Part shown: piece after piece, positions 2,525 to 16,371 of the stretch
Numbering within the stretch: position 1 is the first letter of the stretch
Layout of the letters: each line of letters opens with the position of its first letter
Source: a virus
IMG/VR virus record: IMGVR_UViG_3300042553_000290
Span: 1 to 20,124 of that record
Length of the DNA: 20,124 nt
Direction: 5' to 3' (one strand)
Made by a program: the position numbers and the translations under genes
The notes under the pieces: model-generated
What the model saw: the letters and a program-made list of their open reading frames with translations, nothing else
Told to the model about the DNA's origin: nothing
Databases searched by the model: none

Positions 2525-3025
2525 ATGGAAGAAAATAATCTTAACAACGAAAACAATGAGGCATCAGTAGAAAATATTGTTGCTGAACAGGCCCCTATTG
2601 AAGCACCAGTTGCTGAAGCACCAGTTGCTGAAGAACCAGTAGTTGAAACAAGAGTAGAAGAAGTTGCTGCTGAAAATAATATTGAAGCATCAGTTTCTGA
2701 AGTATCAGAATCTTCTGATGCTATCACTACAAATGATTTAAATAGATCTGCAAGTGATACAGTGCAGGCTGTAGGTTCTATTGTAAATGGTGTAATCGGA
2801 GTCGCAGAAACCCCACGTCCAACAAGAGGTGCAGCACCTGCTGCTCCAAAGAAGTCAAATAAGACTGTCGCTATTCATTCTACAAAGAATGTAAGTTGGA
2901 ATGGAGTTGGCAAGGTTTATCGTGGATATAATATTGTTACGCCAGAACAATCAGAAAAATGGCTAACTCGTAATCACGTTAGACTTGCTACACCAGAAGA
3001 AGTAGCCAGGGAGTTTGGTCGCTAA
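2525..3025 (+). CDS. Head-associated protein with acidic N-terminal tail and small C-terminal domain, 166 aa
   Basis: The start is the ATG at 2525, preceded by TAGGAGGT (2511-2518). Residues about 15-75 are acidic and rich in Ala, Val, Pro and Glu, with tandem EAPVA units; residues about 75-110 are Pro/Ala-rich. The last 45 or so residues form a compact domain (VSWNGVGKVYRGYNIV then EKWLTRNHVRLATPEEVARE) of a kind I associate with small proteins found between capsid and connector genes in actinobacterial phages; its exact function is not known to me. Position suggests a structural or head-decoration protein, or one that helps connector attachment. The next gene starts at the base after this stop codon. 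The assignment as head-associated is inference from position. Confidence 0.6.
   Translation: MEENNLNNENNEASVENIVAEQAPIEAPVAEAPVAEEPVVETRVEEVAAENNIEASVSEVSESSDAITTNDLNRSASDTVQAVGSIVNGVIGVAETPRPTRGAAPAAPKKSNKTVAIHSTKNVSWNGVGKVYRGYNIVTPEQSEKWLTRNHVRLATPEEVAREFGR
2600..2644 (+). repeat. 15-base tandem repeat encoding EAPVA, three units
   Basis: Units at 2600-2614 and 2615-2629 are identical; a third at 2630-2644 is diverged. They encode EAPVA-EAPVA-EEPVV in the acidic tail of the preceding entry's protein. The pattern points to recent slippage or unequal recombination in a disordered linker. Confidence 0.75.
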
Positions 3026-4353: not shown

Positions 4354-5027
4354 TGTTAAAGTTAATTATAAATAGCAAACAATTCCAAAGAGAAATGAAT
4401 AACATAGTTAATTACTCTACTGGATTTATTGAGGGTATTGGCAGAGGCAAGAAGGCTATGTATTCAGCACTAGGACCACAGATATCAGAATTAGCAGGAC
4501 AGTTTATAGATGCCAATGCAAGGGTTTCTCCAGAATTATTGCATCACGTATATGAATGGCATAGAACTGGAAGCCCAGAGGCAAGATTATTTGATATTGA
4601 TTTTACAGTTAGCAATATTGGTTTAACATTTAAGTCATCACTGAAGCAGTCCACATCAATTAAGAATGGATCTAATGTGCCATTTTATAATAAAGCAGAA
4701 GTTATGGAAAGAGGTATTGGTGTAACAATTAAGCCAAAAAAGGCACAGGCGTTAAGGTTTGAAATAGACGGACAAGAAATATTTACCTCAAGAGAAGTTA
4801 GAGTTGAAAATCCTGGAGGACAAACAGAGGGACAGTTTAAAAATGTCATCTCTAATTTCTTTGGAGTTTATTTTAGACAATCATTTTTGGAGTCAAGTGG
4901 TCTTGGACAATACTTTAAGTATCCAAAGGTTTATGCAAAAAATTTAAACGCAGGAAAACGTGGCGGAAGATCTGTAGGATTAAAGGCTGGATATCAGTGG
5001 GTAGCAAATGCGGGGGCAATTAAATGA
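4353..5027 (+). CDS. Neck / tail-completion protein (HK97 gp10-like position), 224 aa
   Basis: Starts in a one-base TAATG overlap with the preceding gene and ends in a four-base ATGA overlap with the next one, so it is the centre of a coupled translation block. The N-terminal third is helical (FQREMNNIVNYSTGFIEGIGRGKKA and on), followed by a mixed beta region and a basic, Gly-rich C-terminus (NLNAGKRGGRSVGLKAGYQW). Phages of this layout usually carry a tail-completion or minor head-tail protein (HK97 gp10 family) here. Length is above the usual 120-170 residues of that family. I do not see a decisive motif; the call is positional. Confidence 0.55.
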   Translation: MLKLIINSKQFQREMNNIVNYSTGFIEGIGRGKKAMYSALGPQISELAGQFIDANARVSPELLHHVYEWHRTGSPEARLFDIDFTVSNIGLTFKSSLKQSTSIKNGSNVPFYNKAEVMERGIGVTIKPKKAQALRFEIDGQEIFTSREVRVENPGGQTEGQFKNVISNFFGVYFRQSFLESSGLGQYFKYPKVYAKNLNAGKRGGRSVGLKAGYQWVANAGAIK

Positions 5028-5563
5028 CAGAATCAACATCAGTATTAAATACACCAGTATTGTGGATTAATAAATATTTAGAGCAAAGAATTGGTGAATT
5101 GGCTGGATATACTATGGAGGCATTTTTCCCAACAGGTCCATCAACATTAGAGACTCTTACAAAACAGTTTCCAGACGGCAATATGGTTGTTTGGGACAGA
5201 ATGTTTAGAATGCGTCGTGGACCTTTCCCACACATTAAATGTGAACAGGTTTTGTATTATTTTTATGCTAATGGGGATTTAAGTGGAGAAACTCCACAAA
5301 GAAGAATGGTTAAAATACAAGAGGCTGTAATGAGGCTAATGGATCGTGGAGACGAAAGTGCCCAAGAACTCAATGCTTGGACTAAGGGCAAGACTTTTGA
5401 GGGTATGGAATGCAAGTTTTATTTCCATAACTTTAAGATATACCAATTAGAAGAGGCAAGGGATATAGTCGACTTCGGAACAGCCCGAACCTATGCGGGT
5501 AATAAGATAATTATTGACTACGACTACCATCAAATGCAAGACATAATCGACTCAGTAAACTAA
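5024..5563 (+). CDS. Tail terminator protein, 179 aa
   Basis: Starts within a four-base ATGA overlap. The sequence has an N-terminal helix (VLWINKYLEQRIGELAG), a central beta segment (MVVWDRMFRMRRG, ECEQVLYYFYANG-like strands), a helix (RRMVKIQEAVMRLMDRGDE) and a C-terminal beta portion, the alpha/beta make-up of tail terminators (lambda gpU, SPP1 gp17), which cap the finished tail tube and bind the head. It is the last gene before the tube protein, the usual place for a terminator. The residue pattern agrees, but a structure comparison would be needed to settle between terminator and completion protein. Confidence 0.6.
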   Translation: MTESTSVLNTPVLWINKYLEQRIGELAGYTMEAFFPTGPSTLETLTKQFPDGNMVVWDRMFRMRRGPFPHIKCEQVLYYFYANGDLSGETPQRRMVKIQEAVMRLMDRGDESAQELNAWTKGKTFEGMECKFYFHNFKIYQLEEARDIVDFGTARTYAGNKIIIDYDYHQMQDIIDSVN

Positions 5564-5608: not shown

Positions 5609-5634
5609 TCTAGAAAAATAAAGAGGTGAAATAC

Positions 5635-6258
5635 ATGGCATATACACGTGGTACTAGCAATAATATCATCGTTGGTGCAGCAGCACTCTTCACATATGAA
5701 GACGGTGTTCTACCAGAAGCAGGAGTCCTTCCAGGATATTCTGCAGGTGTCTCTTACAAGACAACTCTTTCCGATGAGGAAGGGTTCCGTAACGTAGGTT
5801 ACACTATGAACGGTTTGGAACTACAGTTCCAACCAGATTTCGGTGAAGTTTCAGTAGACCAGGTTCTTGACGTTGCTAAGTTGTTCAAGCAAGGCATGCA
5901 GGTAAACCTAAATACTACATTCGCAGAATCAACATTAGAGAATCTTCTTTTTGCTCTCGCAAGCAAGGATGAGAATCTTACAACAGTATCTGGTAATCCA
6001 ACATTAAATCTTTCCGCAGGCGACATCGGCGAATGCCCAGTCGAACGTGGTTTGGTTGCCGTTGGCCCAGGAACTGGTGACTGTGCAGCATCTGATCAAA
6101 TCGAAAGAGTTTACGTTGCATATCGTGCACTCTCAATCGAGAGCGTAACGGTTGGTGCAAAGCGTGATGAGGCAACAATGTTCGAAGTCTCATTCCGTTT
6201 GCTTCCAAACGACAACGGTTCTTACGGTAAGATCGTAGATCGTACAATCCCAGCATAA
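5635..6258 (+). CDS. Major tail (tube) protein, 207 aa
   Basis: The ATG at 5635 has AGAGGTGA (5622-5629) at good spacing; the in-frame GTG at 5626 is part of that ribosome site and is rejected as a start. The protein is beta-rich (LELQFQPDFGEVSVDQVLD, RVYVAYRALSIESVTVGAKR, EVSFRLLPND), soluble, about 200 residues, and sits between the tail terminator and the chaperone genes, which fits the tube subunit that polymerises around the tape measure. Seven of eight Arg codons are CGT and many codons end in C, like the capsid gene and unlike the neighbouring tail genes, as expected for the most abundant tail protein. A clean terminator follows. Confidence 0.88.
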   Translation: MAYTRGTSNNIIVGAAALFTYEDGVLPEAGVLPGYSAGVSYKTTLSDEEGFRNVGYTMNGLELQFQPDFGEVSVDQVLDVAKLFKQGMQVNLNTTFAESTLENLLFALASKDENLTTVSGNPTLNLSAGDIGECPVERGLVAVGPGTGDCAASDQIERVYVAYRALSIESVTVGAKRDEATMFEVSFRLLPNDNGSYGKIVDRTIPA

Positions 6259-6282
6259 TACAACTTAATATAAGATTAGCCC

Positions 6283-6304
6283 AGCCCAAAAGGTTGGGCT
6301 TTTC
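6283..6304 (+). terminator. Intrinsic terminator after the tail tube gene
   Basis: AGCCCAA (6283-6289) and TTGGGCT (6294-6300) form a perfect 7-bp stem with a four-base AAGG loop, followed by TTTTCTGTTT. It lies 24 bases after the tube stop codon and ends just before the promoter-like TGATATAAT. Confidence 0.9.
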
Positions 6305-6308
6305 TGTT

Positions 6309-6317
6309 TGATATAAT
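6309..6317 (+). promoter_or_regulatory. Putative extended -10 promoter driving a leaderless mRNA
   Basis: TGATATAAT (TATAAT at 6312-6317) ends exactly six bases before the ATG at 6324, so the expected transcript start coincides with the start codon. There is no Shine-Dalgarno match in 6305-6323 and an in-frame stop at 6309 rules out an upstream start. Together these indicate a leaderless transcript, common in Actinobacteria and Deinococcus. Confidence 0.7.
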
Positions 6318-6323
6318 AGTTTA

Positions 6324-7004
6324 ATGCCTACAGAAATATATAAAAGTGCTGTTGTTGAATTAATAGACGGAACAGAAATATATATAACACCATTAAAAAT
6401 AAAGTTCTTAAAACTATTTTTAGATGAGTTTGAAAATGTTAAGTCTGCTAAAAATGATGACGAGGCTATAGATGCATTGGCAAAATGTACAGTAATAGCC
6501 ATGAGACAGTATTATCCTCAAATAAAAACACAACAAGAACTAGAAGATAATATTGATATGCCAACTATATATAGAATATTAGATTTTGCTGCTGGTATTA
6601 AGATTAATGAAAAGTCAGAAGAAACAGTTAAGCAGCAGGCAACTGACAGTGGGTCTACCTGGGATGAGTTAGATCTTGCTGAATTAGAATCAGAGGTTTT
6701 TTTGCTGGGTATTTGGAAAGACTATGAAGAATTAGAATCTTCAATGTCAATGCCTGAAATAATAGCAACACTAAAAATAAAAAGAGATCTAGACTATTCT
6801 CAGAAAAAGTTTTTGGCTGCAATGCAAGGAGTAGACTTAGATAAGGCAAGCAATAAGAATAATGCCTGGGAAGAGATGAAGGCCAGGGTATTCAGTAAAG
6901 GAAAGGCATCAGACTCAAAAGACATACTATCACTACAAGGAGTGAATGCACAAAAAGCAGGGTTTGGCATTGGTATGGGTCTTGAGTACGAAAATCTTAC
7001 CTAA
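6324..7004 (+). CDS. Tail assembly chaperone, long form (G-like plus T-like domains in one frame), 226 aa
   Basis: Residues about 10-92 form a helical domain (VELIDGTEIYITPLKIKF, CTVIAMRQYYPQI, MPTIYRILDFAAG) that is clearly related to the next gene. After a hydrophilic linker, residues about 115-226 form a second domain (DLDYSQKKFLAAMQGVDLD, NAWEEMKARVF, VNAQKAGFGIGMGLEYE). In lambda the equivalent fusion gpGT arises by a -1 frameshift; here both domains are in one uninterrupted frame. Long chaperones load the tape measure and recruit tube protein, and are not in the virion. The start at 6324 has no ribosome site and lies six bases after a TATAAT, so it is probably leaderless. A T_TTT_TTG heptamer at 6698-6704 could allow slippage to a 134-residue product. 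The chaperone call is by position and domain pattern. Confidence 0.8.
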   Translation: MPTEIYKSAVVELIDGTEIYITPLKIKFLKLFLDEFENVKSAKNDDEAIDALAKCTVIAMRQYYPQIKTQQELEDNIDMPTIYRILDFAAGIKINEKSEETVKQQATDSGSTWDELDLAELESEVFLLGIWKDYEELESSMSMPEIIATLKIKRDLDYSQKKFLAAMQGVDLDKASNKNNAWEEMKARVFSKGKASDSKDILSLQGVNAQKAGFGIGMGLEYENLT

Positions 7005-7020
7005 AAATAAAGTCTTCTTG

Positions 7021-7029
7021 TGGTATAAT
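7021..7029 (+). promoter_or_regulatory. Putative extended -10 promoter, TGGTATAAT
   Basis: TATAAT at 7024-7029 with TG at 7021-7022 lies 17 bases after the long chaperone gene. Expected start near 7036, giving a leader of about 19 bases with the AAGGAGG site. No convincing -35 box and no terminator hairpin between the two chaperone genes. It would let the short chaperone be made independently of the long one. Confidence 0.6.
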
Positions 7030-7054
7030 TTATTCAATACCTTAAGGAGGAACA

Positions 7055-7381
7055 ATGGCCGAAAAGCCTAAAGATAATACAAAAACAGTTACATTAGTTG
7101 ATAATACAGAGATTCCAGTTAGAGCCTTAAAGTTATCTCTTCTAAGACCATTCATGCTAAAATTTGCTGAACTGGCTGCAGTTGCTGAAGATAACGATAA
7201 GTCTATGGATATCCTTATGGACTGTGTTCAAATTGCAATGAAACAATACAAGCCAGAATTGGCAGACGATAGAGAACAACTAGAGGAGTTGCTAGATCTT
7301 CCTACAGTTTATCAGATAATTGATGCAGCATCTGGATTCCAAAATGCTGATGCATCAGTTGTTGCTGGTCTAGTAAAATAA
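7055..7381 (+). CDS. Tail assembly chaperone, short form (G-like domain only), 108 aa
   Basis: The ATG at 7055 follows a strong AAGGAGG (7044-7050). The whole protein aligns with the first domain of the preceding gene: VTLVDNTEIPVRALKL against VELIDGTEIYITPLKI, CVQIAMKQYKPEL against CTVIAMRQYYPQI, LPTVYQIIDAASGF against MPTIYRILDFAAGI. By eye about a third of positions are identical. It ends shortly after this domain and has no T-like part; the tape measure frame is closed by a stop at 7387, so it cannot be extended by frameshift into the next gene. It probably plays the part of lambda gpG, the abundant short chaperone, coating the tape measure during tube assembly. It sits 23 bases upstream of the tape measure start codon, the normal location. 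Confidence 0.8.
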   Translation: MAEKPKDNTKTVTLVDNTEIPVRALKLSLLRPFMLKFAELAAVAEDNDKSMDILMDCVQIAMKQYKPELADDREQLEELLDLPTVYQIIDAASGFQNADASVVAGLVK

Positions 7382-7390
7382 ATAAATAAA

Positions 7391-7407
7391 GAGGTGCGAA
7401 GGAATTG
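7391..7407 (+). promoter_or_regulatory. Ribosome site and TTG start of the tape measure gene
   Basis: GAGGTG (7391-7396), with a second purine-rich GAAGGA at 7398-7403, precedes the TTG at 7405. A stop codon at 7387 in this frame, and the lack of any in-frame ATG or GTG between it and 7405, leave TTG as the only start that retains the N-terminal ADVNSNININF strand. Confidence 0.7.
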
Positions 7408-10400
7408 GCAGATGTAAACTCTAATATTAATATTAATTTTAATACTGCCGACGCTTTAGCACAATTACGCAGACTACAGGCAGGCCTCAGCAAGTTTCAT
7501 CAATCACTTGCTGAAGGCAACCTGGCTGCTGCAAATGCACAAAAAGGTTTAAACGCTCAATTAGCACAAGCCGTAGGGGCAACAGGAAAGTTTGCTGTCA
7601 GTCAAGCAAAAGTTGCGTCCAGCACTATGGCATTTACAACTGCCTTAGAAAAAAATAAACTATCCCTTAAAGAATATTATCGATATAGCATGGCTGCTGC
7701 AACAGCCAATACAAAAACATTAGGCAAGGCTTTTGCACAAGAACGTGAAATTATTAACCGTGCTCGTAGAGATAGAGTAAAATCACTACAAGCACAGTAT
7801 ATACAGATGGCTAAAGCGCAGGGTGGCTTTATTGATGCTATGCGTATTATGCCACGTACATTGATGATGACAAATGGACAATTTACAGAACTTGGTACAC
7901 GTATCCAATATGCAGCACAAAGACAACAGTTCCTAAATCAATTATTAAAGCAGGGATCTACACAACTTCTAAACTTTGGTAAGAATACTCAATGGGCTGG
8001 ACGCCAGTTGATGGTTGGTTTAACAATACCACTAGGCATGCTTGGCGGGTATGCATCAAAGGCATTTAGAGAGTTAGAACAGGCTACATTAAAGTTTAGA
8101 CGTGTATATGGAGATGCCTTTACTAATGATGCTGAAGTAGAAAGCGCAATAGCCAATATAAGAAAACTTGCAGAAGAATTTACTAAATATGGAGTTGCAG
8201 TAAAAGATACAGTAGAGATGGCTGCAACGGCTGCAGCAGCAGGTTTTCAGGGTGAAGATTTAACTAGACAAGTTGAAACTGCAACAAAGTTAGCAGTGCT
8301 AGGACAAGTAGAGCAACAGCAGGCACTTGAAACAACCATATCATTACAGAACGCATTTGGATTATCTAGTGAGCAGTTAGCAGAAAAAATTAACTTTCTA
8401 AACGCAGTTGAAAACCAAACTGTTTTATCTATTGAAGATTTAACTATTGCAATTCCAAAAGCAGCACCAGTTGTTAAGCAACTAGGCGGTAACGTAGAAG
8501 ATCTTGCATTCTTCTTGACTGCCATGAAGGAAGGCGGTATTAATGCATCAGAAGGTGCTAACGCACTTAAGTCTGGTCTTGCTTCATTAATTAACCCAAC
8601 AGAAAAAGCAAGCAAGATGCTTGGCGAAATGGGAATTAATATCAAAGGAATTGTTGAAGCAAATAAAGGTGATGTTAAGGCTACAGTAGTTGGTTTTGCA
8701 AAAGCACTTGATACCTTAGATCCACTTAACCGTGCACGTGCCATCGAACAATTATTTGGAAAATTCCAGTTTGCTCGTTTGTCTACCTTATTTCAAAATG
8801 TATCCAAGGATGGAACTCAGGCAGCAAGAGCATTTGATTTAGCAGGGGCATCAGTTGAAGAGTTAGCAGTTCTATCAGAACGAGAAATGAAGAAGGTAGA
8901 AGATGCTGTAGGTGTAAAGTTTCAGGCTGCAGTAGAACAATTTAAGCAAGACATCATGCCATTAGGAAAGGCATTTCTTGAAGCAGTCACACCAATAGTA
9001 CAATTTTTTGGTAAGTTATTTGAAAAATTTAATGGTTTGGGAGATCAAACAAAAAAAGTAATAGCAATAATTGTTGGAGTAGTTGCTGGTCTTGGTCCAA
9101 TTCTTTTGATGACATTTGGTTTGTTAGCAAATGGTTTAGCAAATCTTATTAAACTTTTTGCAACAATAAGAGGTGGAGTTGCTAAGTTAAATGGACAAAC
9201 AAATATTTTAGGTGCTGGCTTTAACTATGTAACACAAGAGCAGTTAGAGCAACAGGCAGCAAGTCAGGCACTTCATAATACTCATACTAGGCTAACAGAA
9301 GTATTTAATATTGAGCGTACTGCAGCAATGCAATTAGCAGCAGCGTATGGACAAATAACAACACAAATGCGAAATATGGCTGCACAAAATCCTGCGTTAT
9401 TTGCAGGAGGAGTTCGTGGTGCAGCAGGTGCAGTATCTAAACTTCCAAAGGGTAGAGTAGGATTTGAAGATGGTATTATAAGTGTTCCTGGACCAAAGGG
9501 TGCTGGAGATATAATTCCAGCATTTGTTTCTCCAGGAGAAGCGATTATTCCTGCAGATAAATCAGAGAAGTATCGTGGCCTTATTACTGCAATGTTCCAA
9601 GACAAGGTCCCAGGTTTTGAAGAAGGAAATGATCCACAAAAGGGAAGAGCAAAACTATCTAGTTATGAAAAATTTGCTTTAGGAACTTTTGATGAATTAA
9701 AAAATGATCCTAAGTCAAGAAGTCAAATAGATACAATTGTTAAAAGATTAGGAAAAGATGCTTTAGAAGAAATTGAAAAATTAAAAACATCTAATCCAAA
9801 GCAATATGAGTTGGTTAGTAAACTATTAAATAAAAAAGGTATTACGCCATCTAATATAACACAGCATGAAATGTTAAAGTATATTGATAATGAATTAGTA
9901 TACAAAGATGGACTTTATTATGATAAGAAATCTATAGACTCTGGCGCTAATGCTTTAACTGCTGGAAAGACATATGATGAGGTTAAGAAGAGAGTTCTTT
10001 ATAGATTAGGTGCAATTGAAAAGGGTGGAGCATTTTCTAATCCTAAAAAGATGAATCTTTCTAAGTTAAGATTCGACATGAGTCCAACAGGAAAGCAAAG
10101 TGGTGGATGGAGACAGGCTATTCCGACAAACTCATTACTGTATAAAACATTAGACGAACAAGAAAAACAGTTTAAAGCAGCAAATGCTGTACAGGGTAAA
10201 GTAGATCCATTAAAATCAGTAAAAGAATCTATGAGATCTTTAGGATATACAGAAAAACAAATTGCTCAAGCATTAAGACCAGAACTATCCCACATAGCAA
10301 AAACAGGAGAGTCAGGAAGAGGTGCTGCAAAATGGCTTAAAGGAACTGCACTATTTGACGTAAGATTATTAAATAATTATATGAATGCTGGTAAAAGAGC

Positions 10401-13400
10401 AACCAACATATTAGATTGGAATGATAAAAACAATAATGCTTTAAGATTAACTCCAGATCAAATTAAAGAATTTAGAAACTCAGCAACCTATATGTCTGGT
10501 CAAAATCATCCGACCAACACATCTGAAGTTAAGTTAGTTAGAGCAGCAGCACAACTTGATATTATTTCTGAAGATTTTCTAAAGAGCCAAACAACTAAGC
10601 CAAAGGCATTTCCTAAACTAGGAGAAGTAAGACAGTCTAGAGCAGTAGCAGAATTAATTGATGGAAGACTTGGTACAGGATACTACAATCAATGGAGACC
10701 ACAATTTAATTTGGCAAGCGGGGCTACAAAAGGAACAAATGTTTTAGTAAATCCTAATAAAGAATACATGGTTGATACTAAAACAGGAGCAATAACAAAA
10801 CTTACCACTGCTAATACTAGTCCAAAGCCAGCAGGAGCAGTTGCAGATACTGGAAAGTCAACTGATAGAAGAGTTGCAACAGAAACATCAACAAATAGAG
10901 TAGCGACAGGAACTCAAGTAAGACGTCTTGGACGTGGCTTTGTTATGACAGGAAGAGATGCTGGAGATCCAACATTAAGTAAGGCTGCAAGAGGTCGTAT
11001 TACAAAGGCGATGCAAGATCAGCAAAGATTGCTACAGCAACAAAATAGATATACTAAACAACAAATTGACGACGCTTTAAGAAGATATAGAAAAATAAAG
11101 GTACAAGAAGAAGTCAATAACGCTAATGCTAGAAGAAAAAGTCAAATAGAGCGAGAAGAATTAAAGAACAGACAGACAAGACAATTAAGCGCAAAAGAAC
11201 TTGCTAAACAAGAAAAGAATAATGCTAAAGCAATGCGTCAAGAGAAGGTAGGAAGATTCTCTGGTGGTGCCTCAATGGCCCTAGGAACGGCTGGTATGGC
11301 TGCTATGATGTCTGGAAATACTGGAATGGGCATGGGGCTTATGGGTGCTTCTGCGGTTGCTGGTATGGCTCCTATGTTTGCTGGCATGGGTCCTATTGGT
11401 TTGGTAACTACAGCAGCAATAGCCGTCGGAACTGGTTTGTTTGCATTGAACAAACATTTTGAAAATGCAGCAAAAAAGCAGGCGGAATATGTAAATTCAG
11501 TTTCTGCTACTACAACAAAGATGGAAGAAATTGGCGCTATAACAAACAAGGTTGGCGCATCACGTGCAATGCAGGAAGTAAGATCTAAGGGTTCATTCAA
11601 TGATTATAACGATGTAAGACGTGCTGGATCAAGGTTTGGAGATACATTTTTACAATCAGATGTTGGTAAAAAGATGGCTGAAGGCTTTGTTAAAAATATG
11701 GAAGACTTTGGCTCCAGGGATGCTGCTAAAAGTTTTGGTTTGCAGTTAGCCTCATATATTTCAGATGGAGTATTGACTCCAGAGCAAGCAGCAAGCATTG
11801 CAGAACAAATCGGAGTTAAGTTAGGAAGCAGAAAATATACAGTAAATATTTTAGGCAATCTTGATAGCATTATAGGCGCCAATGGGGAAGATTTAACAAA
11901 AGATCCTCTTGCAGTTAGAATGAAAATAATTCAACAAGCAGGCGAAAGAACAAAGTCAGAATTACAAGCATTAAGTGCTGGTGGCGGAAGAGATTCTGCA
12001 GCAAGGCTTGCAGCATTAAGTGTTAATAATGTACAGTTAGCACAGGCACAGGCAGACGCTACAGAATGGCAATATAAAAAGCAAATACAGTTATTAGAAA
12101 AACAATTAGCACAAACAACTAATCTTGAAAAACAATTAGAACTAAAGTCCAAGATTGCAGAATTAGATTCTCAAATGATAACAGATGTTTCTCAAATGAA
12201 TAAAAAGGTTAATGATCAAATTCAATCAGAGATTAAAACATTTAGAGAAAATATTCAAAATACACGTGCTGCAATTTTTGGTGGAGATGCTGAAGAAGAT
12301 GCATACTTTGATGCATTAAAATCATCTGTACAAGAAAGATACAAAACTGATTTTCCAGGAATGACAAAGGTTGTACAACAAAAACTTGCAGGTGTAAGCG
12401 GTAGTACTAATTTTGCTAGTAGAGGATTCAAGAGCATGGGGCAGGCTCAAGAACTCGAAGTTGTTGCAAACGTATTAATGGGACAAGGATTTGCTAACCC
12501 AGATCAATTTAATTCATTCTTGAAGATGTTTGAAGGCAAAGAAGGAGATCTTTACAACACATTAAATATGGGCATGGAAGTTCATGGCCCACAAAAAACT
12601 GTAGAGATGATGGAATTCTTTACTGATTTTGATAATAAAGAACTTGCTATGCAAATGTCTGCAGATGTTATAAGTAAAGATCCAGCACAATTTGATAAGA
12701 TAGGCAAAGCACTTGCACAACTTTCAGTTATGGATGGTAAAGAAATTAACATGGAGGCCTTTATAAAGGCTCAAGGTATAGAAGGATTAGAGAAACTTGC
12801 AAATGATTTAGACAAGATAGAGCAAGTACCAACTCCAATAACTAAAGAGGCAATTGCAAAAATAACAGAAATGGGTATTGCTGGAATCAATAAGAGCAGC
12901 ATGCAAACATTAATGTCTCAGTGGAAAGATTGGGATGCACTTCCAGACGTTGCAAAGAAAGAAGCAATTTCAAAATATAAAACTGTATATGATCTTATAT
13001 TCGCAAGCCCAGAAGCAAAAATAGAATGGGCAAGAAAAATTGCTGCAGAAAAAGCAAAGGCAGCAACAAAAGGTTTAACTGGAACTGCAGCAAAGGCTGT
13101 TGGAGAGTTAACATATAATGCAGAATCAAGCAAACTTGCTGCAAGTGACGCTACAACAGTTGCATCAGAAGCAGCAAAAACTTATGTTGGCGAAGATGGA
13201 AAAATCTATACTAAAGATGGCGGAAAGTATAAAGGTCCTAGCGATGGTGGCGGTAAGAAAGAAGATCCATATGCATTTATTCTTGCAAGATTAAAAAATG
13301 TTCGTAACGCTGCAATCGACGCTTCTGGCGGTATAAAAGAATTAAACAAAGCCTTAGCATCAGGCAACCTTCAATCAATAGCAAATAAGTATCAAGGCAT

Positions 13401-16371
13401 TCAGCAACAACTAGAAAAGATTGGCGCTAGTAGGCAGTTCGCTGACTGGTTAATGAATTTAGATCCAGCAGAACAAGCCAAGTTTATGAAGACTGCGACT
13501 ACCAAAATAAAAAGAGGTAAAAATAAAGGAAGAGTCGTAGATCCATTTGATCCAAAGGGTAAAAAACTATTACCAAAGGGTGCAAAGGTTGGAGATGTTG
13601 TTCTTGCTGATAATGCAAAAACAATGTCAAAGGCTTTTGATGCTGCTATTATTGGAGAGTTTAATACTGCTGCTGGTAAGTCTTTAGCAATTCTTAATGA
13701 GCAAGAAGTAACAAGAAGAAAGTTAGTTGCCCTTGGATATAGTGCTACTGCTATTGAAAGAATTTTACAAGATGAATATACTACTTCTGCAATTGCAAAT
13801 GGAAAAATTACAGAGCAAGATTTAAAAACAAATGCTGCACTTAACAATCAGGTAGTTATAAGAGAGAGAATTAATGGTCTTATTTCAAAAGGCTCTCAGG
13901 CGCTAGAACAGGCTGCAAACATTAAACAGGTTCCAAAGGTTTTAGAATTCTTCCAAAAGATGTCAAAGGAAGGAATAACATTGTCAAAGGGTGCAATGTT
14001 AGATATTATAAAAGATCCAGAACAACTTTCAGCAGCAATTGCTGCAATGCAAGATTATGAGTCTGGCGCTGCAGATGCTAGGGATAGATTAAAAGAAATA
14101 GTAGATGGACTTAATGCAATAAAAGCAAATTCAAAACTACAAGTTGCAATAGATTTTGCTACATCAAGTCCTGCAGAACAAGCAAGAACAGGTTTTGAAG
14201 CAGCACAAAAGGTTATGAAAGCCAGAAAACTTGCATACTCTAATATGACTCTTTCAGAATTACCAGGAATTACAACAGCAATAAGAACAGATAAAAAAAC
14301 TGGAAAACAGGTTGGTGGACAAAATATTGGGCAGCAAGCAATGGCTACTGTGGCAGAAAGATATAAGGCTGCTGGTCTTGCAATTCCTCAAATCGGAGCA
14401 GGACAAACACTTGCATCAATTCAAAAACAAAGAGCAGCCAATGCTCAAACATTAGGGTTAGCACAACAAAGAGCAAGTCAGTTACAAGGCAATGTAAATG
14501 CTGCTCAAGATGCTTTATCTTCTGCTGAAGATGCTTTATCTGCTGCCCAAGATCGTTTAGATGCCGCTCAAGATAATTTAGAAAAAGCAATTGATAATGA
14601 AAATAAGAGAATAGACAACCTAATAAAAGCAGAAGAAGATAAGATAGATTCAATTGAAAAACAAATTAAGATTAAATATCAAGATGAAGTTGATAAATTA
14701 AATAAGGAATCTGATAAATTAAATAATGATCTTGCAATAATGGATTATCAGGCTGAATCAATTAATGAAAAATATGATAAACAATTAGAAGCATTGCAAA
14801 AAGTAAACGAAATTAATCAAGATATTGCTGCCTCACAACAGCAGCAATTAGGTTTAGCAGATGCATTATCTCAAGGTGATATAGCAGCAGCAGCAAGAGC
14901 AGCACAGGAAATGAGAGCATCAGAACAAGAAAGAATGGCAAATGCTCAGATGTCATCTCTTGAACAAGCCAGAAAGAATGAACTTAATTCTTTGCGTGGC
15001 GCAGAAACTGGAATGACCAGAGAACAAATTTCTGAAAGACAGTTCCAGATTAGTCAGGCAATTTATAAATTAGAAAATGATCCTGCAAGACTAGAATTAG
15101 AAAAACAAATCGAAACTATTAAAGCAAATATTGCTAAGATTGAAGAAGGCCGTGCTGCAGCAATTGAAAAGATAAAAATAGCAGCAGAGGCCGAACTTGC
15201 TGCTGCTAAGGCTTCTGTACTTGAGGCTGAAAAAGGAGTTACTGCTGCTCAGGCACAAGTTACTGCAGCAAAAGCAAATCTTGCCGAACAAGAAAAAATA
15301 GTAAAGAAATATCAAGATCAAGAAGATAATTTATTCCAACAGGAACAATATCTACAAAGTATAGTTGATGCAGCAGAAGACATCGATGACAGTGCTGGCA
15401 TGACTTTAGAAGATTATGAAAATATGGTTATAAAGTTAGAGGCAATAGAAGGTTTAGCAGAAGCCTATGCTTTAGCAATGGAAGGTGCTGCAGCAGCAGC
15501 ATCAGCATCAGATACTTCATGGACATCAATTTTAGCAACTATAAATGCAATTCCAGATAGTGTAGAAACAGAAACCATAATTAATGAAATAAGAAATATT
15601 ACAGAAAACATTACAAGATATATAACAACTATAGATCTTGGTGGCTCTAGCAGTTCAAGCAGTTCTAGTAGTTCAAGTAGTTCCAGCACTAACACTGGCA
15701 ATACTAATACCAACACTGGTAATACTAATACTAATAACCAAAAACAACCTGGCGCTGCCTGGATCTCAGACGGTAAAGGCGGATGGACAAAACCACCTAA
15801 ACCAGTTGGAGATTATGAATGGGACGACAATAGAGGATGGGTTAAAGGTGGTACTGTAAATACAGGAAATACAGGATCTACTACTGATTCTGCAGCAGAA
15901 GCAAGATTAAGAGAAGAAGCAAGATTAAAGGCTGAAGCAGATGCAGCAGCCGCAAAAGCAGCAGCAGAAGCAAAAGCAGCAGCAGAAAAAGCAGCAGCAG
16001 AAAGAGAAGCGGAAGAAAGAGCAGCAAGAGCAGGGGCTTGGATTAATCCTTATGGCGGAATGGCATTTAGAAGTTCTGGAGGATTAATTCCAACTAAATA
16101 TTTTGCAAAGGGCGGATTATCACTTGGAACAGACATAGTTCCAGCAATGCTAACTCCAGGTGAGTTTGTGATGAGTCGTTACGCAGTTGAAAATTATGGT
16201 GTAGATAAGATGAAGGCAATAAACAATGGAGACTCAGTTGGAGACTCAGTGTATAATTATAGTATTAGTGTAAATGTTAAGTCTGATGCAAACCCTGATG
16301 AAATTGCACGGGCAGTAATGAGTCACATTAAGCAGGTAGATTCAAAGAGACTTAGAGGAGCCAGAATATAA
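7405..16371 (+). CDS. Tail tape measure protein, 2988 aa
   Basis: It sets tail length and passes through the tube at infection. Visible parts in order: N-terminal helices (1-220); TP901-type core (about 221-532, with VEMAATAAAAGFQGEDL and AMKEGGINASEGANALKSG); hydrophobic helices (552-587, start VIAIIVGVVAGLGPILLMTF); a DIIPAFVSPGEAII motif (702-715); a polar, Lys-rich segment without recognised similarity (about 745-1280); a Met/Gly/Ala hydrophobic stretch (1286-1348); long helical regions; a coiled coil (about 2351-2658); a 14-Ser tract (2748-2761), an Asn/Thr/Gly linker, a Trp-rich patch (2781-2816), an Ala/Glu helix (2829-2878) and a second motif DIVPAMLTPGEFVM (2910-2923). The length is unusually large: lambda gpH has 853 residues. 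At about 0.15 nm per residue the tail would be near 450 nm if the whole protein acts as ruler. It overlaps the next gene by one base. Confidence 0.95.
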   Translation: MADVNSNININFNTADALAQLRRLQAGLSKFHQSLAEGNLAAANAQKGLNAQLAQAVGATGKFAVSQAKVASSTMAFTTALEKNKLSLKEYYRYSMAAATANTKTLGKAFAQEREIINRARRDRVKSLQAQYIQMAKAQGGFIDAMRIMPRTLMMTNGQFTELGTRIQYAAQRQQFLNQLLKQGSTQLLNFGKNTQWAGRQLMVGLTIPLGMLGGYASKAFRELEQATLKFRRVYGDAFTNDAEVESAIANIRKLAEEFTKYGVAVKDTVEMAATAAAAGFQGEDLTRQVETATKLAVLGQVEQQQALETTISLQNAFGLSSEQLAEKINFLNAVENQTVLSIEDLTIAIPKAAPVVKQLGGNVEDLAFFLTAMKEGGINASEGANALKSGLASLINPTEKASKMLGEMGINIKGIVEANKGDVKATVVGFAKALDTLDPLNRARAIEQLFGKFQFARLSTLFQNVSKDGTQAARAFDLAGASVEELAVLSEREMKKVEDAVGVKFQAAVEQFKQDIMPLGKAFLEAVTPIVQFFGKLFEKFNGLGDQTKKVIAIIVGVVAGLGPILLMTFGLLANGLANLIKLFATIRGGVAKLNGQTNILGAGFNYVTQEQLEQQAASQALHNTHTRLTEVFNIERTAAMQLAAAYGQITTQMRNMAAQNPALFAGGVRGAAGAVSKLPKGRVGFEDGIISVPGPKGAGDIIPAFVSPGEAIIPADKSEKYRGLITAMFQDKVPGFEEGNDPQKGRAKLSSYEKFALGTFDELKNDPKSRSQIDTIVKRLGKDALEEIEKLKTSNPKQYELVSKLLNKKGITPSNITQHEMLKYIDNELVYKDGLYYDKKSIDSGANALTAGKTYDEVKKRVLYRLGAIEKGGAFSNPKKMNLSKLRFDMSPTGKQSGGWRQAIPTNSLLYKTLDEQEKQFKAANAVQGKVDPLKSVKESMRSLGYTEKQIAQALRPELSHIAKTGESGRGAAKWLKGTALFDVRLLNNYMNAGKRATNILDWNDKNNNALRLTPDQIKEFRNSATYMSGQNHPTNTSEVKLVRAAAQLDIISEDFLKSQTTKPKAFPKLGEVRQSRAVAELIDGRLGTGYYNQWRPQFNLASGATKGTNVLVNPNKEYMVDTKTGAITKLTTANTSPKPAGAVADTGKSTDRRVATETSTNRVATGTQVRRLGRGFVMTGRDAGDPTLSKAARGRITKAMQDQQRLLQQQNRYTKQQIDDALRRYRKIKVQEEVNNANARRKSQIEREELKNRQTRQLSAKELAKQEKNNAKAMRQEKVGRFSGGASMALGTAGMAAMMSGNTGMGMGLMGASAVAGMAPMFAGMGPIGLVTTAAIAVGTGLFALNKHFENAAKKQAEYVNSVSATTTKMEEIGAITNKVGASRAMQEVRSKGSFNDYNDVRRAGSRFGDTFLQSDVGKKMAEGFVKNMEDFGSRDAAKSFGLQLASYISDGVLTPEQAASIAEQIGVKLGSRKYTVNILGNLDSIIGANGEDLTKDPLAVRMKIIQQAGERTKSELQALSAGGGRDSAARLAALSVNNVQLAQAQADATEWQYKKQIQLLEKQLAQTTNLEKQLELKSKIAELDSQMITDVSQMNKKVNDQIQSEIKTFRENIQNTRAAIFGGDAEEDAYFDALKSSVQERYKTDFPGMTKVVQQKLAGVSGSTNFASRGFKSMGQAQELEVVANVLMGQGFANPDQFNSFLKMFEGKEGDLYNTLNMGMEVHGPQKTVEMMEFFTDFDNKELAMQMSADVISKDPAQFDKIGKALAQLSVMDGKEINMEAFIKAQGIEGLEKLANDLDKIEQVPTPITKEAIAKITEMGIAGINKSSMQTLMSQWKDWDALPDVAKKEAISKYKTVYDLIFASPEAKIEWARKIAAEKAKAATKGLTGTAAKAVGELTYNAESSKLAASDATTVASEAAKTYVGEDGKIYTKDGGKYKGPSDGGGKKEDPYAFILARLKNVRNAAIDASGGIKELNKALASGNLQSIANKYQGIQQQLEKIGASRQFADWLMNLDPAEQAKFMKTATTKIKRGKNKGRVVDPFDPKGKKLLPKGAKVGDVVLADNAKTMSKAFDAAIIGEFNTAAGKSLAILNEQEVTRRKLVALGYSATAIERILQDEYTTSAIANGKITEQDLKTNAALNNQVVIRERINGLISKGSQALEQAANIKQVPKVLEFFQKMSKEGITLSKGAMLDIIKDPEQLSAAIAAMQDYESGAADARDRLKEIVDGLNAIKANSKLQVAIDFATSSPAEQARTGFEAAQKVMKARKLAYSNMTLSELPGITTAIRTDKKTGKQVGGQNIGQQAMATVAERYKAAGLAIPQIGAGQTLASIQKQRAANAQTLGLAQQRASQLQGNVNAAQDALSSAEDALSAAQDRLDAAQDNLEKAIDNENKRIDNLIKAEEDKIDSIEKQIKIKYQDEVDKLNKESDKLNNDLAIMDYQAESINEKYDKQLEALQKVNEINQDIAASQQQQLGLADALSQGDIAAAARAAQEMRASEQERMANAQMSSLEQARKNELNSLRGAETGMTREQISERQFQISQAIYKLENDPARLELEKQIETIKANIAKIEEGRAAAIEKIKIAAEAELAAAKASVLEAEKGVTAAQAQVTAAKANLAEQEKIVKKYQDQEDNLFQQEQYLQSIVDAAEDIDDSAGMTLEDYENMVIKLEAIEGLAEAYALAMEGAAAAASASDTSWTSILATINAIPDSVETETIINEIRNITENITRYITTIDLGGSSSSSSSSSSSSSSTNTGNTNTNTGNTNTNNQKQPGAAWISDGKGGWTKPPKPVGDYEWDDNRGWVKGGTVNTGNTGSTTDSAAEARLREEARLKAEADAAAAKAAAEAKAAAEKAAAEREAEERAARAGAWINPYGGMAFRSSGGLIPTKYFAKGGLSLGTDIVPAMLTPGEFVMSRYAVENYGVDKMKAINNGDSVGDSVYNYSISVNVKSDANPDEIARAVMSHIKQVDSKRLRGARI
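14506..14589 (+). repeat. Four heptad repeats in the tape measure coiled coil
   Basis: Four consecutive 21-base units encode QDALSSA, EDALSAA, QDRLDAA and QDNLEKA (residues 2368-2395). The regular Leu and Ala positions show a coiled coil, and the related codons suggest tandem duplication of a 21-base unit. Confidence 0.75.
15646..15687 (+). repeat. Poly-serine tract built from a 9-base repeat
   Basis: Fourteen Ser codons in a row. From 15649 the DNA is four copies of AGY-AGT-TCN (period 9), followed by AGC. Both Ser codon families are used, so the tract grew by duplication of a mixed unit and not by single-codon slippage. Confidence 0.85.
15691..15732 (+). repeat. 21-base tandem repeat encoding NTGNTNT, two units
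   Basis: Units 15691-15711 and 15712-15732 differ only in third codon positions and encode NTGNTNT twice, right after the Ser tract. With it they form a flexible linker between the coiled-coil region and the C-terminal parts of the tape measure. Confidence 0.8.
15952..16002 (+). repeat. 18-base repeat in the Ala/Glu helix of the tape measure
   Basis: Two perfect 18-base copies (15952-15969, 15970-15987) encode AKAAAE, followed by a 15-base partial copy (15988-16002) encoding KAAAE. A long charged single helix is the likely structure. Confidence 0.8.

Follow-up and report, generated by a model that had tools for sequence, protein, structure and literature searches.

Programmed frameshifting between the tail assembly chaperone genes G and T is widely conserved among long-tailed phages (PMC5009743). 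Work on lambda and TP901-1 describes gpG as a coat around the tape measure protein and the T part of gpGT as the portion that brings in the major tail protein, with a balance between these products being required (PMC5009743, PMC4493119). The question of whether slippage itself is required, as opposed to two products in a certain ratio, has been approached with laboratory mutants such as those of TP901-1, in which a forced in-frame gpG-gpT fusion gave particles that looked intact and were non-infectious (PMC4493119). Exceptions to the frameshift are already in print; in Microbacterium cluster EA phages, two chaperone ORFs are reported to be expressed 'without an evident frameshift' (PMC7302621).

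Here, we analysed a viral locus in which the two chaperones appear to be encoded by two complete genes. The window (the whole stretch of DNA analysed, 20,124 nucleotides of IMG/VR record IMGVR_UViG_3300042553_000290) resembles lambda in that its two chaperones have an N-terminal G domain in common and one of them is extended by T (PMC5009743); it differs from the lambda gpG/gpGT pair in that the long form is encoded in one continuous frame and the short form by a separate, diverged gene. The TP901-1 fusion mutant described in PMC4493119 has an in-frame GT as well, but it was made in the laboratory and has no separate G. The Microbacterium EA phages are like the window in their lack of an evident frameshift; however, the ORFs of TeddyBear (EA1) and Schubert (EA8) are G and T apart and not G paralogues, the second ORF matching the T part of Pikmin (79% and 76% identity, respectively) and not the first ORF. 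On the basis of these two phages, the EA group was rejected as an earlier case of the present arrangement. TeddyBear and Schubert (loci L257 and L259) represent a third arrangement, in which the G and T ORFs are non-overlapping and 14 nt apart; in Pikmin, which belongs to the same cluster, G and T form a joined frameshift CDS. Searches of open-access papers, a collection that excludes most subscription titles, found no account of an in-frame GT accompanied by a duplicated G.

The gene order in the window is major tail protein, long chaperone, short chaperone and tape measure protein, all on the forward strand. The major tail protein gene (5626..6258), of the Ig-domain type, was assigned by a match to PHROG 2175 ('protein with Ig domain', E 1.7e-32) and lies directly 5' of the chaperone genes. 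Of 13 cultured relatives that were fetched, 11 carry the annotation 'major tail protein' or 'protein with Ig domain' for the gene at this place, the other two being Trina, where it is hypothetical, and Naboo, whose record has no annotation. This gene is followed by a terminator-like hairpin with a T-rich tail (6278..6300, from a terminator scan) and a -10 box, TATAAT (6312..6317), which stands 6 nt before an ATG at 6324 and is the predicted leaderless promoter of the long gene. The long chaperone gene (6324..7004) encodes an in-frame G-T fusion of 226 aa, with the G domain (G1) at about residues 1-96 and the T domain at about residues 103-226. Then come an extended -10 box, TGGTATAAT (7021..7029), placed 25 nt before the start of the short gene, and a Shine-Dalgarno (SD) site, AAGGAGG (7044..7050), 4 nt before the ATG at 7055. 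The short chaperone gene (7055..7381) encodes G2, a stand-alone G-domain paralogue of 108 aa, and directly 3' of it is the gene for the tail length tape measure protein (7405..16371; 2988 aa from a TTG start), the first 865 aa of which match the tape measure family PHROG 10030 (E 6.3e-102). As encoded, the locus has the features by which tail assembly chaperones are recognised, namely a short G gene, a long gene with a G domain and a C-terminal T domain, and a position for both between the major tail protein and tape measure protein genes.

The initial annotation had read the first gene as a G-like and a T-like domain in one continuous frame and the second as a free-standing copy of the G-like domain. 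Both readings were borne out. The ORF at 6324-7004 and the profile matches agree for the long gene, and the G domain of the long gene aligns with the short protein at 38.8% identity over 85 aa (blastp E 1.5e-19; within the record by tblastn, E 3.7e-17), a homology beyond chance; the motifs V.L.D.TEI, C..IAM.QY.P and PT.Y.I.D.A.G, which had been noted as common to both proteins, are present in the translations. PHROG 10504 is matched by both proteins (E 4.1e-20 for the long and 2.5e-13 for the short one) and PHROG 10474 by the C-terminal part of the long protein (E 2.7e-15), both families being labelled 'unknown function'. All 65 G sequences of one alignment (A4) match PHROG 10504, while the chaperone families PHROG 344 and PHROG 1932 are matched by three and four of the 65. 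The long protein also matches 132 records of cultured phages (127 Streptomyces and five Rhodococcus), and many of those listed are annotated 'tail assembly chaperone'.

Searches beyond phage protein families gave little. There was no usable Pfam match for either chaperone protein (DUF4778 and others fell below the cut-off), the G profile found nothing at E ≤ 1 among PDB sequences, and Foldseek searches with models of both proteins gave no match at E ≤ 0.001. The mean pLDDT of the predicted models was 79.3 for G2 and 72.7 for GT, and the G part has the same order of elements in both, two strands and then helices; a difference in structure between the two N-terminal domains, which had been raised at the outset as a point that would count against the proposal, was thus not seen at the level of predicted models. 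The list of structural matches was headed for each model by the HK97 tail assembly chaperone 2ob9 (Z 4.7, rmsd 5.1, 90 residues aligned for one; Z 4.5, rmsd 4.7, 83 aligned for the other), with low Z values that are tied with unrelated rows when rows within 1 Z are counted as tied, and this match fits the chaperone assignment of the models but is no proof of it.

To see how the arrangement is distributed, G and T profiles were built and the architecture of every locus collected was read in one uniform way. Three scans of IMG/VR contributed 240 loci, the best 80 of each; two of these scans were queried with the window's own proteins, so that the in-frame state is over-represented and the counts are no survey of abundance. 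A scan of genome contigs gave one locus only (L256). Three loci were left out: L001 and L002, which are the window itself, and L124, whose contig begins there with no G upstream of T and which could not be classed. The other 253 loci (the best 80 per IMG/VR scan together with the others) amount to 153 distinct G-to-T regions, which fall into two states. In 110 of the 153, GT is in frame and a second G lies downstream, and one more (L054) has an in-frame GT that is cut by the end of the contig. Forty have T in the -1 frame and no second G in at least 600 nt after T, and in one further region with T in the -1 frame the DNA is cut too soon to tell. The survey of related phages that the initial annotation had called for thus recovers the gene pair in 110 of 153 distinct regions, GT and G2 being found together in every in-frame region whose contig is long enough. 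A frameshift joining the short gene to a T domain, the second point raised against the proposal, was not found, since the T profile had no match after the second G in any of the 110.

The remaining region, L153, has formally a T in the -1 frame together with a second G. Its frame break (L153, 1-269) lies inside G1 near the start of the contig and there is no slippery site; it was therefore rejected as a frameshift locus with a second G, and looks like a damaged or misassembled copy of the in-frame state, the one exception.

Among cultured phages, tblastn of the long protein of the window found homologues of both domains with E values down to 9e-33, and 13 of these relatives were fetched and read. 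G and T are in the same place in all 13, with T in the -1 frame relative to G, and a second G was not found in the fetched stretch of any of them. Three are annotated with a joined frameshifted CDS (Yaboi, TunaTartare and Dorin), nine with two separate ORFs and one not at all; in all 12 that are annotated, the chaperones come after the major tail protein gene and before that of the tape measure protein. The Stanwilliamsviridae Streptomyces phages and the Rhodococcus phages Dorin and Trina are like the window in both homologous domains and in their place between the tail genes, but differ from it in having one G, T in the -1 frame, a slippery CCCAAAT, CCCGGAA or GGGAAAA, and no second G that we could find. 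The short protein of the window gave nothing at E ≤ 0.1 when compared with cultured phages by tblastn; the short protein of a distant relative, L159, matches 127 Streptomyces phage records.

A WhiB gene, which has been suggested as a mark of actinophages (PMC10202952), is carried by 11 of 12 large in-frame-state contigs and points to actinobacterial hosts for the group. The genome-contig scan found no host, the bin of its single locus being named as a cyanobacterium. That locus (L256; CAINGU010000031.1, about 4702-5315) is a frameshift-state pair of this chaperone family on a contig binned as an uncultured cyanobacterium, and is either a misbinned phage contig or a sign of a wider host range of the family.

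The two states differ in their slippery sites. A slippery heptamer lies in the zone of G/T overlap in all 41 frameshift loci, the Streptomyces and Rhodococcus phages included: 30 have a canonical X XXY YYZ (CCCAAAC, CCCAAAT, GGGAAAC or GGGAAAA) and 11 have CCCGGAA. Canonical heptamers occupy 31 of 772 in-frame positions in these overlaps, but 12 of 3,867 elsewhere in those G genes. In the in-frame state, they occupy 12 of 3,563 positions of the linkers (counted over a slightly narrower zone), a rate close to background and roughly one tenth of the rate in true overlaps, and they occur in the last 30 codons of G2 in six of 110 loci and are absent there from 104. No conserved slippery site is thus left, and a heptamer combined with a T in the -1 frame is found neither in the window nor in 111 of the 153 distinct regions.

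These counts bear on the view that recoding persists, with the in-frame GT gene yielding a short G1 by slippage and G2 serving as an extra chaperone with another job. The gamma product of dnaX arises by slippage; a canonical heptamer does lie in the linker zone of 14 of the 111 in-frame GT genes, and G1 and G2 are so far apart (mean identity 36.5% over all pairs) that G2 need not be a simple stand-in. The other 97 linkers have no such heptamer, however, the overall rate is close to the background just given, and it is G2, not G1, that groups with the G of the nearest frameshift relatives. We consider persisting recoding highly improbable. A loss of the -1 programmed frameshift, with the two genes encoding the long (GT) and short (G) siphophage chaperones, is in our judgement very probably what these comparisons of sequence reflect.

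The sharpest contrast between in-frame GT on the one hand and G2 or the frameshift-state G on the other is found in the start regions. GT starts could be scored in 109 of the 111 in-frame loci, and in 108 of them the hexamer TANNNT stands 5-8 nt before the start (at 6 nt in 102 of the 108); in the 109th, L052, it stands 6 nt before a GTG that is taken as the start in another reading. The stricter TATANT is found at that distance in 102 of 109 GT genes; among the other ATGs of these loci it is so placed before 92 of 14,254, and it precedes none of 105 tape measure starts. No GT start has an SD match of at least 5 nt (0/109), and only three of the 109 genes have any start codon within 60 nt of it with an SD match. 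In Actinobacteria, where leaderless genes are common, the first T of the -10 hexamer of such genes is described as lying about 12 bp ahead of the start codon, with no SD (PMC3160421); in the window, the first T of TATAAT is 12 nt before the ATG at 6324, likewise with no SD. Given this and the WhiB genes, leaderless initiation would be plausible in the host. The leaderless-type start that the initial annotation had proposed for the long gene is accordingly present at 6312-6317 and kept in 108 of 109 relatives scored.

G2 presents the opposite picture. When start codons with an SD were preferred, SD matches of at least 5 nt were found in 104 of 108 loci and of at least 7 nt in 92; without this preference, the figure is 105 of 110. 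An extended -10 box, TGNTANNNT, lies within 60 nt upstream of G2 in all 108 loci scored, and none has a leaderless-type -10 box. The strong AAGGAGG site claimed for the short gene thus stands, at 7044-7050, as a conserved element. A separate promoter for the long form had been proposed as well; the -10 box is there, but a promoter-like box of its own is not peculiar to the long gene, the short gene having its extended -10. Start regions of the frameshift-state G resemble those of G2, with an SD match in 39 of 41 and no leaderless -10 in any of the 41. The two without an SD match are L166, for which an internal start was scored in place of the annotated one, and L241, with a match of 4 nt.

In 108 of 109 loci, GT is preceded by a hairpin with a T-rich tail; 42 different stem sequences are represented, and most of these hairpins end 20-23 nt before the start. 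When run on shuffled upstream regions, the finder fired in two of 110. The frameshift relatives have an upstream hairpin in 36 of 41 loci, ending 58-67 nt before the start in the eight printed, and since the hairpin is nearer to the start of GT, GT seems to have lost its leader. No hairpin was found between GT and G2 in any of 108 loci, over a stretch that is shorter than the one scanned upstream, and so G2 may also be read from the promoter of GT.

Could the -10 boxes at the GT start be incidental, GT being reached by read-through on the major tail protein transcript and translated by coupling? Termination at the hairpin may be incomplete, and promoter-like motifs are common in the A+T-rich DNA of the window (15 against 7.1 in shuffled sequences). 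The terminator scan of the window alone does no better than chance, with one found against 1.4 expected in shuffles, and a consensus promoter scan lists neither chaperone promoter, as it asks for a -35 box. With these window-only scans weak, the case for the start signals rests on conservation. It is there that the incidental reading fares badly, against the -10 hexamer at 5-8 nt in 108 of 109 GT genes with no SD in any, the concentration of TATANT at GT starts compared with other ATGs of the same loci, and a hairpin with a T tract kept in 108 of 109 loci across 42 different stems. We think it very unlikely that the boxes have no role, and take the long gene to have a predicted promoter and leaderless start of its own.

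Three minor features of these regions were seen. In L015, L016, L018 and similar loci (e.g. L015, 3676-3735) the long protein has 8 additional residues (234 aa) and a gap of 28-29 nt precedes G2, so that in this subgroup the last nucleotides of the GT coding sequence seem to be shared with the putative -10 box of the G2 promoter. The Streptomyces-phage G genes of L163, L164, L165, L171 and others start with TTG or GTG behind an SD-type site. Start codons of the in-frame clade are mostly ATG, with GTG in a few.

The history of the two G domains was examined in a tree of 104 rows and 102 columns, which excludes the G's of L166, L167 and L191. G1 forms one clade (100/98) and so does G2 (100/98), which points to a single, old event. 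G2 groups with the G's of six frameshift relatives (96/84), and the stem of G1 is 0.73 long against 0.18 for G2. Sequence comparison within the alignment agrees: of 41 columns conserved in G2, the residue is kept in at least half of the six nearest frameshift relatives in 38, in at least half of G1 in 27, and in at least half of all 30 frameshift G's in only 20. In pairs of the same phages, G1 differs more than G2 in 517 of 666 comparisons, which are not independent of one another. By these measures G2 appears to have stayed close to the G of its nearest frameshift relatives while G1 diverged, the median identity of the two within one phage being 40.5%.

The same tree could be read to mean that G2 was acquired from another phage and placed beside an old in-frame GT, with no duplication within the lineage. 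Phage genomes are mosaic, and the grouping of G2, and not G1, with the six frameshift G's is what such an origin would give. It is equally what would be seen had G2 kept the ancestral sequence and G1 diverged quickly, as the stem lengths suggest, and the constant company of GT and G2 in all 110 in-frame regions with enough contig speaks against acquisition. We regard it as rather unlikely, though less so than persisting recoding or incidental -10 boxes. Duplication within the lineage and acquisition from a near relative give the same present state, and either way the frameshift would have been replaced by two genes.

In a free T tree of 70 rows the in-frame state sits among frameshift lineages, and its rows form one side of a branch in only 16% of 200 bootstrap trees; holding them as one clade gave a likelihood better by 10.8 (p-AU 0.707). 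Two changes are also needed in a rapidly built major tail protein tree, which has poor resolution around the base of the in-frame group. The alignments are short, at 122 and 102 columns. That the frameshift is likely ancestral is drawn from the broad spread of the G-T frameshift in tailed phages described in PMC5009743.

One frameshift locus, L205 (2708-3375), has its T inside the in-frame clade of the free tree (82/90) on a long branch, and its G outside both G1 and G2. A return to frameshifting was considered for this locus and was set aside as the less likely reading because of where its G falls; for the same reason the placement of its T is read as a misplacement, and the locus is possibly a mosaic.

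The DNA itself, then, shows a second G gene, an upstream G that continues in frame into T and a downstream G on its own; no slippery site is conserved, and each gene has a conserved start region of its own, with a leaderless-type -10 for GT and, in the case of G2, an extended -10, a leader and an SD site. The replacement of frameshifting by two genes, which the initial annotation had offered as conjecture, gains support from the two-state pattern, the slippery sites, the start regions and the trees. We propose that an ancestor had one G/T gene translated by -1 frameshifting, that G was duplicated, perhaps because G-T was copied in tandem and the second T was then lost, and that the first G copy became fixed in frame with T. 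On this view G2 would supply the short form, in abundance, to coat the tape measure protein, and GT would be the scarce product, bringing in the major tail protein through its T domain. An in-frame GT ought to need a separate source of G, as the fusion-only TP901-1 phage is reported as non-infectious (PMC4493119), and G2 offers one. The G:GT ratio would be set by differing initiation and transcription in place of ribosomal slippage: G2 has a strong ribosome site and a promoter-like box, and might be read from the GT promoter too. A surplus of G2 over GT is expected on these grounds, and leaderless translation, promoter use and the G:GT ratio are all predictions of the model.

A fuller version of this history, which we judge to be evenly balanced between right and wrong, holds that an ancestral phage of what is now a large actinophage clade replaced a widely conserved recoding event, once, by duplicating the gene, fusing one copy in frame and splitting initiation between a leaderless start for the long form and a Shine-Dalgarno site for the short one, and that the G domains then specialised, G2 keeping the ancestral coating of the tape measure and G1 becoming a dedicated part of the tail initiator, so that the two are no longer interchangeable.

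The clade is seemingly a natural experiment in which both products are kept without slippage. Frameshifting forces the G domains of the two products to be identical; once freed, G1 and G2 have become about 40% identical within one phage, with the separate copy the more conserved. Both the clade and its sister state are defined, and a reporter test is readily available.

Elsewhere in the window, a head maturation protease is encoded at 1-1260 (PHROG 9427, E 2.5e-104), with a C-terminal part rich in E, V and A. After the capsid gene, at 2525-3025, lies a gene for a protein of 166 aa, without a PHROG match at E ≤ 0.001, whose make-up is like that of the E/V/A-rich C-terminal part of the protease.
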